A DNA stretch of 64,000 bases from Sulfurimonas sp. (GTDB lineage: Bacteria; Campylobacterota; Campylobacteria; Campylobacterales; Sulfurimonadaceae). The notes under the pieces were generated by a model. That model was not told the origin of the DNA. It worked only from the letters and a program-made list of their open reading frames with translations, and made no database searches. The DNA is taken from positions 1-64,000 of the forward strand of contig NZ_JBFHGL010000004.1 in the NCBI RefSeq assembly GCF_041583195.1. Direction: 5' to 3'. A program made the translations under genes and the position numbers. Below are positions 57,560-64,000 of this stretch, one piece after another. Every line of letters starts with the position of its first letter. Within the stretch, counting starts at the first letter, position 1.

Positions 57560-57910
57560 ATGAAAAAATTAATTTTAGCTTTATATATGGCTGTATTGTT
57601 TGTTTCTGATGGGTCTGCTCAAAGTCCAATAGCTGAAAATGGTAAGGGTATTTTTGAATCTAAAGGTTGTGCTTTATGTCACAAACAAGATATAGATACA
57701 GTTGGACCATCACTACAGAAAATTGCAACAGCATACTTAGGTAAAGAGGCTTCTCTACTAAGCTATCTTAGAGGTCAAGGGGCACCGATAGTTGAACCTG
57801 CACGTGCTCCTGTTATGAATCCTCAATTAGTGAAAATCAGAGCACTGTTTGATGAAGATATGCAAGCTTTAGCTACATATATAATCTCGGCTAACGATAG
57901 ACCATTTTAA
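57560..57910 (+). CDS. Periplasmic monoheme cytochrome c
   Basis: A 116-residue secreted cytochrome with a signal peptide (about 1-20, ending SAQ) and one heme motif CALCH near residue 38. A candidate Met axial ligand is in ARAPVMNPQ. The size and the LATYIIS end match class I c5/c551 carriers. It is the first gene of the cytochrome block and would shuttle electrons in the periplasm, perhaps between the bc1 complex and the multiheme proteins that follow 15 bases later. Confidence 0.9.
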   Translation: MKKLILALYMAVLFVSDGSAQSPIAENGKGIFESKGCALCHKQDIDTVGPSLQKIATAYLGKEASLLSYLRGQGAPIVEPARAPVMNPQLVKIRALFDEDMQALATYIISANDRPF

Positions 57911-57925
57911 AAATAAAGGCAAAAA

Positions 57926-59131
57926 ATGAAATATATTAGTTCTTATGTTGCAAGCTTTGCAATTATTTTATTGCTAGGATCTGTTAATATGTTTGCAGCA
58001 GAAGTTCCAGTTAAAGAGAGAGTTTTAACCGAAAGTGAAAAGTTTTACGGAACTGAATTAAGATCAGGTAAAAAAACTGTCCATCCACCATTTGAATGGG
58101 GTGACTGTACAGTCTGTCATACTGATGCAAAGGGTGAAGATGGACTTATTATGGATCCACCTGATTTGTGTTCTATGTGTCATGAAGCTAAAGACAATAA
58201 AAAATTTATACATGGGCCGGTTGCTGCTGGTGCATGTACTGCATGTCACGATCCTCATGAGTCTGAGAACGCGAAACTTTTAGTTGCTTCAAGTATAAAT
58301 GAACTTTGTACATCATGTCACCAAGCTAAGGATGAGTTTTTACATAAAACTAAAAATATTCACCCTCCGGTAAAAGATCAGTGTACAAACTGTCATGATC
58401 CACATACTGAAGATCACCTATACCAGTTAAAAGCAGATGGTAAAAAAGATCTTTGTGTTATGTGTCACGTTGACAAAGAGGTTTGGACAAGTACTGTTAC
58501 AGATAAACATGGAGCACTAGATAGACCAAGAAAATGTCTTGAGTGTCATGATCCGCATGGTTCAGAAAACCCTAAATTCTTGGTAAAAGATACATCTAAA
58601 GAACTTTGTTTGACATGTCATAGTGAGACATTAGTTACTGATGAGACAGGAACTAAAATTCAGAACATAGGAAAACATCTTGATAATAACCCGGATTGGC
58701 ATGGTCCAATTCTATGGGGTGACTGTGCAGCATGTCATAATCCGCATGGTTCCAACAATTTAAGAATGTTAAAGAAACCATTTCCTAGAACTTTTTATGA
58801 GAAGTTTGATGAAGATAACTATATATGTTTTGAGTGTCATGAAAAAGAGAAAATTCAAGATGAGTTTACAACAACTATGACAAATTTTAGAAATGGTGAC
58901 AAAAATATGCACTTCGTACATGTAAATAAAGACAAAGGGCGCTCTTGTCGTGCTTGTCATGATTTTCATGGTACAAAAGAGTATCCACACCATTTAAGAA
59001 AGAAAACGAAGTTTGGTAAAATTAATTTCCCAATTCGTTTTATTGAAACAGAAAATGGTGGTTCATGTGCACCGGCATGTCACGCTAGACGTCACTATGA
59101 TAAAGTAACACCTAAAATAAATTTAAAATAG
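57926..59131 (+). CDS. Multiheme cytochrome c, 11-12 hemes
   Basis: A 401-residue secreted protein with a signal peptide (about 1-24). Eleven CXXCH motifs are visible: CTVCH, CSMCH, CTACH, CTSCH, CTNCH, CVMCH, CLECH, CLTCH, CAACH, CFECH and CRACH. A final CAPACH is a CX3CH variant, so the heme count may be 12. Repeated CHDPH and CHNPHGS phrases mark the doubled CXXCH family. Such proteins act as periplasmic or surface electron relays. It is cotranscribed with the small cytochrome and the octaheme protein. Confidence 0.92.
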   Translation: MKYISSYVASFAIILLLGSVNMFAAEVPVKERVLTESEKFYGTELRSGKKTVHPPFEWGDCTVCHTDAKGEDGLIMDPPDLCSMCHEAKDNKKFIHGPVAAGACTACHDPHESENAKLLVASSINELCTSCHQAKDEFLHKTKNIHPPVKDQCTNCHDPHTEDHLYQLKADGKKDLCVMCHVDKEVWTSTVTDKHGALDRPRKCLECHDPHGSENPKFLVKDTSKELCLTCHSETLVTDETGTKIQNIGKHLDNNPDWHGPILWGDCAACHNPHGSNNLRMLKKPFPRTFYEKFDEDNYICFECHEKEKIQDEFTTTMTNFRNGDKNMHFVHVNKDKGRSCRACHDFHGTKEYPHHLRKKTKFGKINFPIRFIETENGGSCAPACHARRHYDKVTPKINLK

Positions 59132-59138
59132 TGTTTGT

Positions 59139-60167
59139 TTGAAACTGATATACATATTTATAATTCTACTTGCCGCTTCAAGCGGCAACGCAGAAAAACT
59201 AAGCTCATCTATAAACATAGTTCAACCTTTAAACAAAACACGATACATTGGTGAACATTGTACATTAGTTATTGATACTAATTTTAAACTAGCCGATAAG
59301 ATAGTAATAACACAAGAAAATAATATAACAACAACTATAGATATCAAAGCAGGTAAAGATACATACTGTAAGACAATCAAACTTCAACCTGCACAAAATT
59401 CTGTATATGTCCATTCCTACAAAGATGGAAAACTGGTGGATAAAGATGAACGTGATTTTTATTTTTTATCTGAGCTGTTTGAAGGTGTAGATGAAGATGA
59501 TGCAGTTGATTACGAATTAAGATACTACCATACAGATGAAAAAGAACAGAAGTGTAAGTCATGTCATAATATGACATCAAATGTTCCCACAAACGGTAAA
59601 GTATTTGAAGATGTTAAACAGACAACATGTTATGAGTGTCATAGTGGTATGTTAGATACAAAAAACACACATGCTCCTGCAGCCAACTGGTTATGTTTGG
59701 ATTGTCATAATGGGGAAGTCGGTGGTTATAATATGGTAGATGCTTCTGCTACAAAATATTTAGCCCCTGATCCAATATCTAAAACTTGTGGAACTTGTCA
59801 TGATACAGTTGATGATTGGCAGTTAAATAAATATGGACATGGACCAGTGGATAATGGAAGATGTGAGAGGTGTCATAACCCTCATGGTTCTGAAAACGAA
59901 TTTTTTCTTCGAAAACCTGTTTGGGATCTTTGTACAACATGTCATTTAGAAAAAGCAAAAGGGATGCATGTAATACCTGCGATTGGTTTTGGATCAAGAA
60001 CAAAAAGTGGTGGACATCCAACAAGAGATAGAAAAGATCCTTCTCGACCGGGAAGAGATCTTTACTGTAGTAGTTGTCATAATCCACATGGATCAAACGG
60101 TACAAAACTTCTAAGAATGAAAGGTTCCTTTGCTTTTGGTGTGTGTCAGAGATGCCATCCAAAATAA
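59139..60167 (+). CDS. Octaheme cytochrome c with N-terminal beta domain
   Basis: A 342-residue exported protein starting at TTG 59139. A signal peptide (about 1-18) precedes a domain of about 110 residues that lacks hemes and looks immunoglobulin-like (SINIVQPLNKTRYIGEHCTL). The C-terminal part carries eight heme motifs: CKSCH, CYECH, CLDCH, CGTCH, CERCH, CTTCH, CSSCH and CQRCH, several followed by NPHGS. A GC-rich palindrome lies within the signal-peptide codons. It is 7 bases after the 11-12-heme gene. The non-heme domain may dock to a partner. Confidence 0.9.
   Translation: MKLIYIFIILLAASSGNAEKLSSSINIVQPLNKTRYIGEHCTLVIDTNFKLADKIVITQENNITTTIDIKAGKDTYCKTIKLQPAQNSVYVHSYKDGKLVDKDERDFYFLSELFEGVDEDDAVDYELRYYHTDEKEQKCKSCHNMTSNVPTNGKVFEDVKQTTCYECHSGMLDTKNTHAPAANWLCLDCHNGEVGGYNMVDASATKYLAPDPISKTCGTCHDTVDDWQLNKYGHGPVDNGRCERCHNPHGSENEFFLRKPVWDLCTTCHLEKAKGMHVIPAIGFGSRTKSGGHPTRDRKDPSRPGRDLYCSSCHNPHGSNGTKLLRMKGSFAFGVCQRCHPK
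59170..59188 (+). repeat. GC-rich perfect palindrome in a signal-peptide region
   Basis: TTGCCGCTT and AAGCGGCAA are perfect inverted arms around one base. As RNA it folds as TTGCCGC, loop TTCAA, GCGGCAA, a 7-bp stem that is unusually GC-rich for this A/T-rich window and sits about 30 bases after the TTG start. It could tune translation or bind a protein. Confidence 0.4.
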
Positions 60168-60339: not shown

Positions 60340-61113
60340 ATGATTAAAAAGAAACTGAGCATAGTCTTAGCAACATTAGTTCTAAGTGTTGGTTCTGCGT
60401 ATGCTGAAACTGTTGCAACTGCAGGTGGTGCATGGGCAGTTGATGGTACAATTGCTGGTACTCCACACGATTTAAGTGGTACAGTTGCCGGAGATAACGG
60501 TGAGATATGTGTATACTGTCATACGCCTCACGCCGCTAATACAGCTTTTGATGGTGCACCACTTTGGAATAAAAAAACTATGGCTGATACTACTAGTTTT
60601 CAGATGTATGGAGCTACGGCTACAAATACAGCTGGTAGTACTATTGCCGGTACTGCAACTTCACAAACACCTGAGAGTCCATCTTTAGCATGTTTAAGTT
60701 GTCATGATGGTGTAAGTGCGATTGATTCTATTGTTAATGCACCTGGTTCTGGAATGGGTAGCTTAATAGATGGTACTCCAACAACTATTACAGCAAATAC
60801 TACAGATGTTGATAATGGTAATATTGGTCAGGATTTAACTAACGATCACCCTGTATCTATTGTTTATACTGAGGGTACAGCTAGTTTAAGACTAAAAACT
60901 ACAACTTTAAATACTATCACTGGTGGTGGTGACTGGGTTGGGGCATCTACTGTTGGAGACCTGCTTCGCGGTCCTGGTAAAGATATGGTTGAGTGTGGTA
61001 GCTGTCACGATCCGCATAATGGTTATGCATCAGATCAAGGAGGAACTCAGGTTAATTACCTTCGTAGAACAAATGCAGGAAGTCAGCTTTGTCTAGGCTG
61101 TCACGCTAAATAA
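60340..61113 (+). CDS. OmcE-like tetraheme cytochrome c, candidate filament subunit
   Basis: A 257-residue exported protein with a signal peptide ending AYA (1-22). Four heme motifs lie at residues 57-61 (CVYCH), 118-122 (CLSCH), 219-223 (CGSCH) and 251-255 (CLGCH). The whole protein has exactly eight Cys and exactly eight His (43, 61, 64, 122, 170, 223, 226, 255), enough for four bis-histidine hemes with none left over. The PHDLS...ICVYCHTPHAA opening, the Gly/Thr/Ala-rich body and the tetraheme count resemble OmcE-type cytochromes that polymerise into extracellular nanowires. It has its own leader and a strong terminator, suggesting high separate expression. Filament formation is inference. 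Confidence 0.8.
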   Translation: MIKKKLSIVLATLVLSVGSAYAETVATAGGAWAVDGTIAGTPHDLSGTVAGDNGEICVYCHTPHAANTAFDGAPLWNKKTMADTTSFQMYGATATNTAGSTIAGTATSQTPESPSLACLSCHDGVSAIDSIVNAPGSGMGSLIDGTPTTITANTTDVDNGNIGQDLTNDHPVSIVYTEGTASLRLKTTTLNTITGGGDWVGASTVGDLLRGPGKDMVECGSCHDPHNGYASDQGGTQVNYLRRTNAGSQLCLGCHAK

Positions 61114-61209: not shown

Positions 61210-62292
61210 ATGATGAAAGCTATTCTCCCTCTTTTTGCCTTAATAATTGCTATTTTATTTCAAGGATGCACCACTAAAGCTCCAAAACCAAAACAGACTA
61301 TAGTATTTCCATCTTATCCTGAAGAACCAAGAATATTATACTTAGACACATATAGAGGTGGACTTGAAGAAAAAGAATATAATGCATTTGATGTTTTTAT
61401 AGGTGAAGAAAAAATAGATAGAGCGCAGTCAAATATAATTAAACCATATGGGGTTGGGCTACTTAATGGCAAAGTATATGCAGTTGACACGGGTTCTAAA
61501 TTAGTATTTGTAATGGATGAAAAAACAAGAGAACTGGATTTGATAGGTACAAGTGCAGTAGGGAGTTTGAGCGCGCCGGTATCTATAGCATTTGATGCTA
61601 ATAATACTATATACGTTAGTGATTCAAGACAAAAAAGGATACTAGGATACGATAGTCAGGGTAAATTAAAGTATTCACTTGGAGATAGGCTTGAGTTTGC
61701 AAGACCAACCGGTATTGCAATAAATAAAAGTTTAAATCGACTTTATGTAGTAGATACAAAAGCACATCATTTTAAAGCTTATGAGCTTAGCACTAAAAAA
61801 CATCTTTTTACTGTGGGTAAACGCGGAAAAGGTGATGGAGAATTTAACTTTCCTACTAATGTTGCAGTAGATCAAAGAAATGGTCATGTAGTTGTAGTGG
61901 ATACTCAAAATTTTCGTGTTCAAATTTTTGATCAAGACGGAAATTTTATAAGCAAATTTGGAAGTATTGGTAATAAGTCTGGTACTTTTGCCAGACCTAA
62001 AGGGGTTGGCATAGACAGTGACGGTAATATCTACGTTGCAGACGGTGCTTTTAACAATATTCAAATATTCGATGAAACTGGTACAAAATATCTCATGTAT
62101 TTTGGTGGAGCAGGATATACAGAAACAAGGTTTCGTTTGATAGCAGGTATGTATATTGATGAAAATGACAAAATAGTAGTAGCAGACGGATTTAGCGGTA
62201 GGGTGCAAACTTTTCAATATTTGAGTGAAAAATGGAAAAAAGAAAATCAACAGAAATACAAAGAGCTTAAAGAATTTAAGCCAGAGATGTAA
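61210..62292 (+). CDS. NHL-repeat beta-propeller lipoprotein
   Basis: A 360-residue lipoprotein with lipobox ILFQGC (Cys near residue 20) and six NHL-type blades (about 70-345), for example PKGVGIDSDGNIYVADGAF and PTNVAVDQRNGHVVVVD. NHL propellers are protein-interaction platforms. Genes for NHL proteins recur next to multiheme cytochrome genes in metal-reducing bacteria, where their role is not settled. Here it may help secretion or assembly of the tetraheme cytochrome. The start is ATG 61210 or ATG 61213. It lies 19 bases before the PPIase gene. Confidence 0.88.
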   Translation: MMKAILPLFALIIAILFQGCTTKAPKPKQTIVFPSYPEEPRILYLDTYRGGLEEKEYNAFDVFIGEEKIDRAQSNIIKPYGVGLLNGKVYAVDTGSKLVFVMDEKTRELDLIGTSAVGSLSAPVSIAFDANNTIYVSDSRQKRILGYDSQGKLKYSLGDRLEFARPTGIAINKSLNRLYVVDTKAHHFKAYELSTKKHLFTVGKRGKGDGEFNFPTNVAVDQRNGHVVVVDTQNFRVQIFDQDGNFISKFGSIGNKSGTFARPKGVGIDSDGNIYVADGAFNNIQIFDETGTKYLMYFGGAGYTETRFRLIAGMYIDENDKIVVADGFSGRVQTFQYLSEKWKKENQQKYKELKEFKPEM

Positions 62293-62311: not shown

Positions 62312-63241
62312 GTGAGAGTATTATTTTTGTTGTTCTTAGCGACAATATTATTATCAAAAGATGTATATTTACCGGAAAACACCGTAGCTATTGTTAATGG
62401 AATAGCAATTTCTGAGGATGAATTAAACAGAGAAGTAACGAAACTAATACCTCGTTCATATGTACACACAACAGTAGATGAAAAAAAGAGAAACAGCTTA
62501 AAAGAGAAGGCATTAGATACTTTAATAAAAAAAACGCTTATGTATGATCATGCAATTAAAAGCAATATAACAGCTAGTGACGAGGAAATTAAATCTCAAT
62601 TATCTGTAATAGTAAATAGATACAGTTCGGCTGAACTTTTCAATAAAGCATTAATAGAATCAAACTTTACAGTTGACACGCTAAAAAGCTCAATAAAAAA
62701 AGATGTAATACTTAATAAGTTGTATAAAAAAGAGATAGAGTTTATACTAAGTGATGAAGAACTTAAAAATAACTATGAAAAAAACAAGCACAAGTTTCTT
62801 GAACCTGAGAAAATCAGAGTTAGCCTGATCTATATAAAAAATGATCCACAAGATCCAAAAGGAAAAGAAAAAGCGATAAAAAAGGCAAAAGAAGCAGAAA
62901 AAATGTTAGCAGATGGTGAAAACTTTGAATATGTTGCACAAACTTATTCAGATGATCCCACGCGTGTTATGGGTGGAGACCTGGGCTTTATCCATAGGGG
63001 AAGATTGCATCCATCTATTGAAGATATAGCCTTTTCACTCGACATAAACAAAGTAAGTAATGTTATTGTAAACGATATAGGGTATTTTATTGTAAAGGTA
63101 AAAGAAAAAAAGAAGCAAAACCAACTAGCATTTGAAACTGTTAAAGATAGCTTGGGAAAAAAATTAAAAAACAAAGAAGAGGATCTGCGAAAGGACAAAT
63201 TACTTAAAAGGTTAATGCTTAAAGCGGTAATAATCAAGTAG
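62312..63241 (+). CDS. Periplasmic parvulin-type prolyl isomerase
   Basis: A 309-residue SurA/PpiD-like chaperone. A signal peptide (about 1-16) precedes an N-terminal helical chaperone domain (AIVNGIAISEDELNREV and onward) and a PpiC-type rotamase domain (about 165-270) with GGDLGFIHRGRLHPSIEDIAF. The start is GTG 62312 with AAGGG upstream. It could fold the multiheme cytochromes or the outer-membrane protein encoded next. It is 7 bases upstream of the truncated last gene. Confidence 0.9.
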   Translation: MRVLFLLFLATILLSKDVYLPENTVAIVNGIAISEDELNREVTKLIPRSYVHTTVDEKKRNSLKEKALDTLIKKTLMYDHAIKSNITASDEEIKSQLSVIVNRYSSAELFNKALIESNFTVDTLKSSIKKDVILNKLYKKEIEFILSDEELKNNYEKNKHKFLEPEKIRVSLIYIKNDPQDPKGKEKAIKKAKEAEKMLADGENFEYVAQTYSDDPTRVMGGDLGFIHRGRLHPSIEDIAFSLDINKVSNVIVNDIGYFIVKVKEKKKQNQLAFETVKDSLGKKLKNKEEDLRKDKLLKRLMLKAVIIK

Positions 63242-63248
63242 TAATTAA

Positions 63249-64000
63249 ATGATAAAAAAAAAACTTTGTTTAAATTTATATCTATTGTTAATAGTAACAT
63301 CAATCCTATCAGCGAAAACTTATTCTGATAAAGGTCTATACGGTAGTTTAGGTTTTTCATATTCGGAACAAGAACTTTCTTCAACATCATACTATTCTTC
63401 AAGAGAAAGTCTTGAACAAATATATATGCTTGGCTATCAGGGATTTGTTTATAGCCCTCTCTTTCTAGACTATACACTAGAAGGTTTATTCAGATTAGAT
63501 GATGAAAATGTTAACAGTGATGGATTAAAGACAAAAAGAACAAATGATAGTAAAGGGTATAAAGCGAATTTGGATTTTTTAAAAAAAACAAGATATCCTT
63601 TTTCGATATTCGCTAACACACAACAAAGCCCGATTTCTATCATTAGTTACAATAATAATATTTATCAGACGTATGATCTTGATAGAAAAGGTATTAACGG
63701 TTCTATTGATTTAGATTCACTAAAATTGACTTATGGGGCACTTAAGACTGAAGGTATTTCAGAAAGTAACACTGCATCCCGCTCTATAGAGACAGATATA
63801 TACAACAGTAGTCTTAAATATACCAATGATCAACACAATGTTCAACTAAATTATCAGCATCGTAAAGAAACAATAGCACAACAATATATAGAAAATAATG
63901 AAAGTTTAAATAATGATTCTAAGCAGATTCAGAACAAGTTTGATATTCGTTACCTATGGGATGTTTCAAAAGACTTTAAATTTAGTTCCAATGCATCTTA
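63249..64000 (+). CDS. Exported beta-rich, probably outer-membrane protein, cut by window end
   Basis: An open frame from ATG 63249 to the window edge, 250 residues so far with no stop. A signal peptide (MIKKK, then a hydrophobic core to about residue 24, ending SAKTYSD) precedes a Gly/Tyr/Ser-rich series of alternating strands (GLYGSLGFSYSEQE, VYSPLFLDYTLEGLFRL, NVQLNYQHRKE), which fits an outer-membrane beta-barrel. In a cytochrome block it could be the conduit porin that holds a heme protein, as MtrB-type barrels do. Only the start is visible, so this is tentative. Confidence 0.6.
   Translation, partial: MIKKKLCLNLYLLLIVTSILSAKTYSDKGLYGSLGFSYSEQELSSTSYYSSRESLEQIYMLGYQGFVYSPLFLDYTLEGLFRLDDENVNSDGLKTKRTNDSKGYKANLDFLKKTRYPFSIFANTQQSPISIISYNNNIYQTYDLDRKGINGSIDLDSLKLTYGALKTEGISESNTASRSIETDIYNSSLKYTNDQHNVQLNYQHRKETIAQQYIENNESLNNDSKQIQNKFDIRYLWDVSKDFKFSSNAS

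Follow-up and report, generated by a model that had tools for sequence, protein, structure and literature searches.

Does this Sulfurimonas genome carry the genes for an extracellular cytochrome wire? The question is raised by an open reading frame at positions 60340 to 61113 of the + strand (ATG to TAA, 257 amino acids) in a 64,000-nucleotide stretch of a Sulfurimonas sp. genome (contig NZ_JBFHGL010000004.1, positions 1 to 64,000; hereafter the window). The source genome measures 2.38 Mb and is 99.91% complete. An earlier note, made from the letters of the window, had proposed that the encoded tetrahaem protein forms a conductive filament similar to that of OmcE, and that such wires would thereby be extended to this phylum or lineage. 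We find that the gene probably encodes an OmcE-type wire subunit, with putative polymerisation, within a cluster that has its own candidate assembly and conduit genes.

The features on which the note relied were recounted in the translation and agree to the residue. The protein has four CXXCH motifs (starting at residues 57, 118, 219 and 251), exactly eight Cys (57, 60, 118, 121, 219, 222, 251 and 254) and exactly eight His (43, 61, 64, 122, 170, 223, 226 and 255), of which those at 43, 64, 170 and 226 lie outside the motifs. Four CXXCH are not a product of chance, because in 20,000 random rearrangements of its residues the motif occurs 0.0073 times on average and at most twice. Judged by eye, the N-terminus reads as a signal peptide with cleavage after AYA; the most hydrophobic 19-residue segment begins at residue 8, with a Kyte-Doolittle (KD) value of 1.67. 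There is no sign of a further membrane anchor, since 19-residue segments starting after residue 30 reach KD 0.99 at most and no lipobox Cys was found at the N-terminus. The low-complexity body described in the note is also present, with Gly, Thr and Ala making up 39% of the mature part.

Comparison with all solved PDB chains using phmmer produced four matches up to E 10, two of them significant. Residues 26 to 257, nearly the entire mature protein, match residues 18 to 232 of 7tfs_A (E 3.9e-23, about 39% identity), an entry entitled 'Cryo-EM of the OmcE nanowires from Geobacter sulfurreducens'; residues 32 to 257 are homologous to 9yuq (E 1.2e-20, about 36% identity), described as a 'putative multiheme cytochrome c', whose 16 chains are identical in sequence. 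All 16 haem-binding positions, that is four CXXCH and four distal His, align with both structures. This pattern fits bis-His haems as the predicted coordination, and the relationship to OmcE is well founded. An OmcS-type hexahaem wire was considered and rejected: the protein has four CXXCH, not six, and OmcS chains are absent from the four phmmer matches (E <= 10). The archaeal tetrahaem wires 8e5f and 8e5g are not among these four matches either; a shared haem arrangement is possible.

Haem ligands were further compared in an alignment of 70 proteins, namely the window protein and 69 of the 71 OmcE-like frames from loci L070 to L148 (L107 and L138:19746 omitted, long N-terminal extensions trimmed). 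H170 and H226 are found in 70/70, H43 in 68/70 and H64 in 61/70; in the two sequences without H43 the alignment appears to have slipped, as a His adjoins the expected place. In OmcS, we take H16, at the same CHxxH place as H64, to be the ligand given to the adjacent subunit, and we infer by analogy that H64 may be shared with a neighbouring subunit. In OmcE and OmcS wires alike, a haem of one subunit is ligated by its neighbour (PMC12954529, PMC9473688, PMC12307469; papers are cited here by PubMed Central (PMC) number, for the accessible part of each text). The OmcE filament has a rise near 34 Å (PMC12954529). A second OmcE-like protein is encoded elsewhere in the same genome, on contig C2 near 174784 (L058:6782-7258): it has 158 amino acids and three CXXCH, lacks the haem 1 site, H43 and H64, and has Tyr in place of H226.

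The OmcE-like gene stands among the following genes:

57560..57910, + strand: monohaem cytochrome c, 116 amino acids (Pfam Cytochrom_C, E 2e-9); the conserved first cluster gene in relatives.
57926..59131, + strand: 11-haem MtrA/DmsE-like protein (11 CXXCH and one CX3CH; 6r2q_A, E 4.2e-12; Paired_CXXCH_1); candidate haem core of an outer-membrane conduit.
59139..60167, + strand: 8-haem cytochrome, 342 amino acids (8 CXXCH; Paired_CXXCH_1, E 1.9e-30); candidate periplasmic carrier.
60340..61113, + strand: OmcE-like tetrahaem cytochrome; candidate wire subunit.
61210..62292, + strand: NHL beta-propeller (Pfam NHL, E 8.3e-30) with a lipobox, LFQGC, recognised by eye; candidate wire assembly or morphology factor.
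62312..63241, + strand: PpiC/SurA-type prolyl isomerase (Rotamase_3, E 1.3e-21; SurA_N_3, E 1e-13); candidate folding chaperone.
63249..64000, continuing to contig position 65009, + strand: outer-membrane beta-barrel, 586 amino acids (fold model of the L078 orthologue); candidate conduit or secretion barrel.

Past the window end follow, in order, a second NHL gene, a 708-amino-acid 10-haem protein with an OmcE-like domain at its N-terminal end, a 181-amino-acid protein with no Pfam match and a 1049-amino-acid ResB/CcsA fusion. Intergenic gaps in the cluster range from a 4-base overlap up to 172 bases. Apart from the second NHL gene of the cluster, nothing in the genome is homologous to the first NHL protein at E 1e-6, and at this threshold the sole homologue of the 11-haem protein is the adjoining 8-haem gene; 10 of the 11 Paired_CXXCH_1 matches in the genome fall inside the cluster. 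There is no compositional sign of a recent import, the G+C content being the same in the cluster (0.337) as elsewhere in the window (0.336).

Two of these genes may form a conduit of the MtrCAB type. The 11-haem protein matches 6r2q_A, which we take to be MtrA, over residues 91 to 217. Pfam has no match for the barrel, and a profile built from ten such barrels found no relative among PDB sequences up to E 1. A structural model was made of the barrel orthologue of L078, which is 23% identical to the window-encoded part; its mean predicted local distance difference test (pLDDT) score is 88.5 and it has 28 strands. The model ranks chain 6r2q_B ('Structure of the Mtr complex') at the top in Foldseek (where a TonB-type receptor shares its E of 3.1e-9) and again in VIA-align (Z 18.3, root-mean-square deviation (rmsd) 7.4, 421 aligned residues; next Z 16.5). 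This supports a wide barrel that would be able to house a multihaem protein; descent from MtrB is not implied. There are also differences from MtrCAB: the barrel, modelled with 28 strands, has no sequence relationship to known chains, no MtrC homologue is seen, and the 10-haem protein has no lipobox.

The complete cluster order is found on one stretch in the genome itself (L009) and in L040, L043, L051 and L052, of which L043 and L051 have three extra genes separating the 8-haem gene from OmcE; in the remaining relatives of this first comparison the order is split by contig ends or insertions. Among eleven further main-cluster stretches of the genus (L196 to L206), seven have the complete set in order, including L196 with a second 10-haem gene, two lack neighbouring 11-haem and 8-haem genes, and two are truncated. 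Two single-contig genomes of the genus, G681 and G686, carry the cluster. A pair of genes resembling a two-component regulator, recognised by eye, lies directly 5' of an OmcE-like gene at L043:6330-8148, L044:2043-3879, L051:13105-14938 and L053:14216-16037.

How does this cluster compare with loci close to a proven wire? No genome of G. sulfurreducens turned up in a survey of 277 members of the class, in which the best identity to 7tfs is 65%, and Geobacter-like relatives were used in place of its loci. Four such genomes (L169 to L172) encode an OmcE 60 to 65% identical to 7tfs. In all four, the genes lie on one strand in the order ResB, CcsA, a 10-haem relative of the 11-haem gene, 8-haem gene, NHL and OmcE; the 8-haem gene is thus near OmcE in 4/4, with the NHL gene in between. 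The upstream companions of OmcE being the same, the upstream half of the cluster is common with these loci.

We propose the following scheme. The OmcE-like protein would pass into the periplasm, where the CcsBA of the cluster would attach four c-type haems, while the isomerase and the NHL propellers would assist its folding and secretion. Polymerisation outside the outer membrane would then give a thin wire in which each haem is bis-His ligated and one haem per subunit takes a His from the adjacent subunit. Electrons may enter or leave this wire through the 11-haem MtrA-like protein inside the MtrB-like barrel, and the 10-haem protein, with its wire-subunit-like domain, may join conduit and wire. 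The scheme is based on homology, ligand conservation, synteny and the barrel model; from these we infer polymerisation, extracellular location, conduction, the helper roles and the direction of electron flow. Counted together, the MtrA-like and MtrB-like parts, the shared synteny and the conserved ligands support a wire with a conduit.

Several observations weigh against this scheme. An AlphaFold2 monomer model of the window protein, built without haems, is poor (pLDDT 59); Foldseek found no match for it up to E 10, and its VIA-align comparison with 7tfs, the sole chain compared, gave a Z of 6.5 (rmsd 4.2, 152 residues), which falls inside the range of unspecific matches. According to the authors of PMC12977616, genuine OmcS wires cannot be identified by sequence profile beyond the limits of a genus, and by analogy the same caution applies to an OmcE-type call such as ours. 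Furthermore, the barrel, the isomerase, the second NHL and the OmcE-domain 10-haem genes found downstream in Sulfurimonas are not at the four Geobacter-like omcE loci, and wires there are therefore built without the downstream half at that place; a barrel-sized frame, the second NHL and the 10-haem protein are present in other Desulfuromonadia (L173, L174, L176 and L177). Lastly, seven OmcE-bearing Desulfuromonadia genomes contain no full-length 10-haem protein at E 1e-6, the matches being to the OmcE domain or to the C-terminal part only (G564 and G625), and a universal anchor is therefore disfavoured.

Could the protein act without polymerising, as a monomeric tetrahaem shuttle in the periplasm or bound to the surface, linking the conduit to soluble or mineral partners? 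A signal peptide and a soluble body would suit a periplasmic cytochrome, and relatives with three CXXCH and no haem 1, for which OmcE-like polymerisation is unlikely, exist in the genome itself (L058:6782-7258) and in G358 (L179 and L180). However, H43, H64, H170 and H226, including the putative inter-subunit His, occur in the window protein as well as in 18/18 OmcE-like frames of the genus, and a free shuttle would have no need of the barrel, isomerase and propeller genes alongside; we regard a shuttle as clearly unlikely. That the motifs belong to a chance or degraded, functionless frame has a negligible probability: shuffles reach at most 2 CXXCH, and relatives preserve the reading frame, its ligands and the order of the genes, so that this reading was ruled out.

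An OmcE-type wire may also form and serve electron uptake, from minerals, cathodes or partner cells, instead of export. No gene fixes the direction. Nonetheless, OmcE has been linked to the reduction of insoluble acceptors (PMC12307469), and manganese oxide reduction with sulfide was seen in a Sulfurimonas isolate (PMC9122950); we hold uptake to be rather improbable. As for the filament proposed in the earlier note, homology, ligand conservation and an upstream gene order common with 4/4 Geobacter-like omcE loci speak for it, and it is the novelty for the phylum that comes out weaker.

If an OmcE-type wire is indeed formed, two groups of relatives may illuminate its ends. The first is the OmcE-like domain of the 10-haem protein, in which all 16 haem positions are present in 27/27 frames (26 distinct; frames of 450 amino acids or fewer, for example those cut by contig ends, are excluded). 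When frames are assigned by best match, 18 frames in 16 of 79 loci are of the 10-haem type. The protein occurs from Campylobacterota to Aquificota, Nitrospirae and Proteobacteria. In a quick tree of 111 rows, some with very long branches, 26 rows of these domains form one group, with one very long row apart. Of possible relation is a 1927-amino-acid frame in the Geobacter-like genome G564 (contig 118, 34697-47468, part in L207), which matches residues 383 to 647 of the 10-haem protein about 12 kb from an OmcE-like gene and is perhaps a rearranged counterpart. A variant second module at L057:6595-13331 (G358 contig 41) comprises an 11-CXXCH relative of the 10-haem protein, an isomerase, a 506-amino-acid frame and an 8-haem protein.

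The second group consists of the nine aligned proteins without H64 (in L087, L101, L105, L117, L124, L125, L138, L144 and L146), all nine of which stand beside a copy that keeps CHxxH; the partner copy in L105 has three CXXCH only. Loss of H64 is not a rule in multi-copy loci, since of the 12 loci where two copies were aligned, six have H64 in each copy and in the other six a single copy lacks it. The 111-row tree shows at least four changes of the H64 state. No copy without H64 was found among the 18 Sulfurimonas OmcE-like frames; L046 and L053, from the same order, have one such copy each. At L085:9923-11501, a tandem pair of OmcE-like genes is identical in the parts compared.

We read these as two specialised relatives of the wire subunit: a haem-fused candidate base and a candidate end piece short of one ligand. 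They suggest a hard-wired wire, in which the first subunit would dock on the 10-haem protein by exchange of an axial His, the six other haems would reach the MtrA/MtrB-like conduit and, in Beta- and Gammaproteobacteria and Persephonella, the H64-less copy would cap the other end. We put this arrangement forward tentatively, as possible though doubtful.

Parts of the scheme recall known systems. The osc (omcS companion) cluster of G. sulfurreducens also has a prolyl isomerase and a propeller. It has been proposed to provide wire folding, secretion and morphology (PMC13194489, PMC12977616); it serves the hexahaem OmcS, however, and the helper genes are likened here by description. Similarly, the OetABI conduit with OmcX/OmcS of syntrophic sulfate reducers places a conduit and candidate wire cytochromes in one cassette (PMC10553843), although OmcE is unmentioned in the accessible main text of that paper and this likeness, too, is one of description. 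Multihaem proteins have been noted in Campylobacterota genome bins, and Campylobacterota are listed among potential electroautotrophs. Sulfurimonas dominates marine redoxcline communities (PMC10066037); in cable-bacteria sediment, one Sulfurimonas was found with incomplete conduit genes only, and an undetected porin was supposed (PMC11748539). The present cluster offers a full set of candidate genes, with a porin-like barrel and a putative wire in addition. Furthermore, secretion and anchoring of OmcS wires have been called speculative (PMC12307469), and the 10-haem protein with its wire-subunit domain makes this question directly testable.

How widespread are such genes? OmcE-like genes are present in 11/397 genomes of the phylum and in 18/135 of the genus (13/79 among those of good quality), and the 7tfs query has relatives in 152/277 genomes of the class that contains a Desulfuromonadales genome. 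In a scan of named genomes, at least 563 stretches out of at least 588 candidates were confirmed. The 79 loci kept belong to Campylobacterota, Aquificota, Nitrospirae, Nitrospinota, KSB1 and Alpha-, Beta-, Gamma- and Deltaproteobacteria; in ten of them no OmcE frame was called, although tblastn matched them. In 44 of the other 69, the stretch with the OmcE frame also carries an NHL gene, and in 32 it carries an isomerase of this type, many stretches being short. The claim that wires are extended to this phylum thus stands in part: OmcE relatives do occur in Campylobacterota, but they are widespread in Aquificota, Nitrospirae, Nitrospinota, KSB1, Proteobacteria and Desulfuromonadia, and a review reports that homologues of OmcS, OmcE and OmcZ were already found across bacteria and archaea (PMC12307469). 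Among the literature matches listed, there is no report of OmcE-type wires in Campylobacterota, with subscription papers and supplements outside the coverage and an earlier report therefore possible; one paper names both OmcE and Sulfurimonas, in separate contexts, and no other match listed has OmcE together with Sulfurimonas or Sulfurovum. OmcE-type proteins being known already, the interest here is the complete conserved cluster and the testable anchor idea.

In the tree, the window protein falls inside a five-member Sulfurimonas group (support 94), and the Campylobacterota rows are not monophyletic. The OmcE of one Sulfurimonas (L078) groups with Nitrospirae and Nitrospinota rows (L084 and L094; support 95), which hints at a transfer of the cluster between phyla. 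Finally, six genomes of the genus (L190 to L195) contain, off the main cluster, seven OmcE-like frames of 220 to 228 amino acids with five CXXCH.
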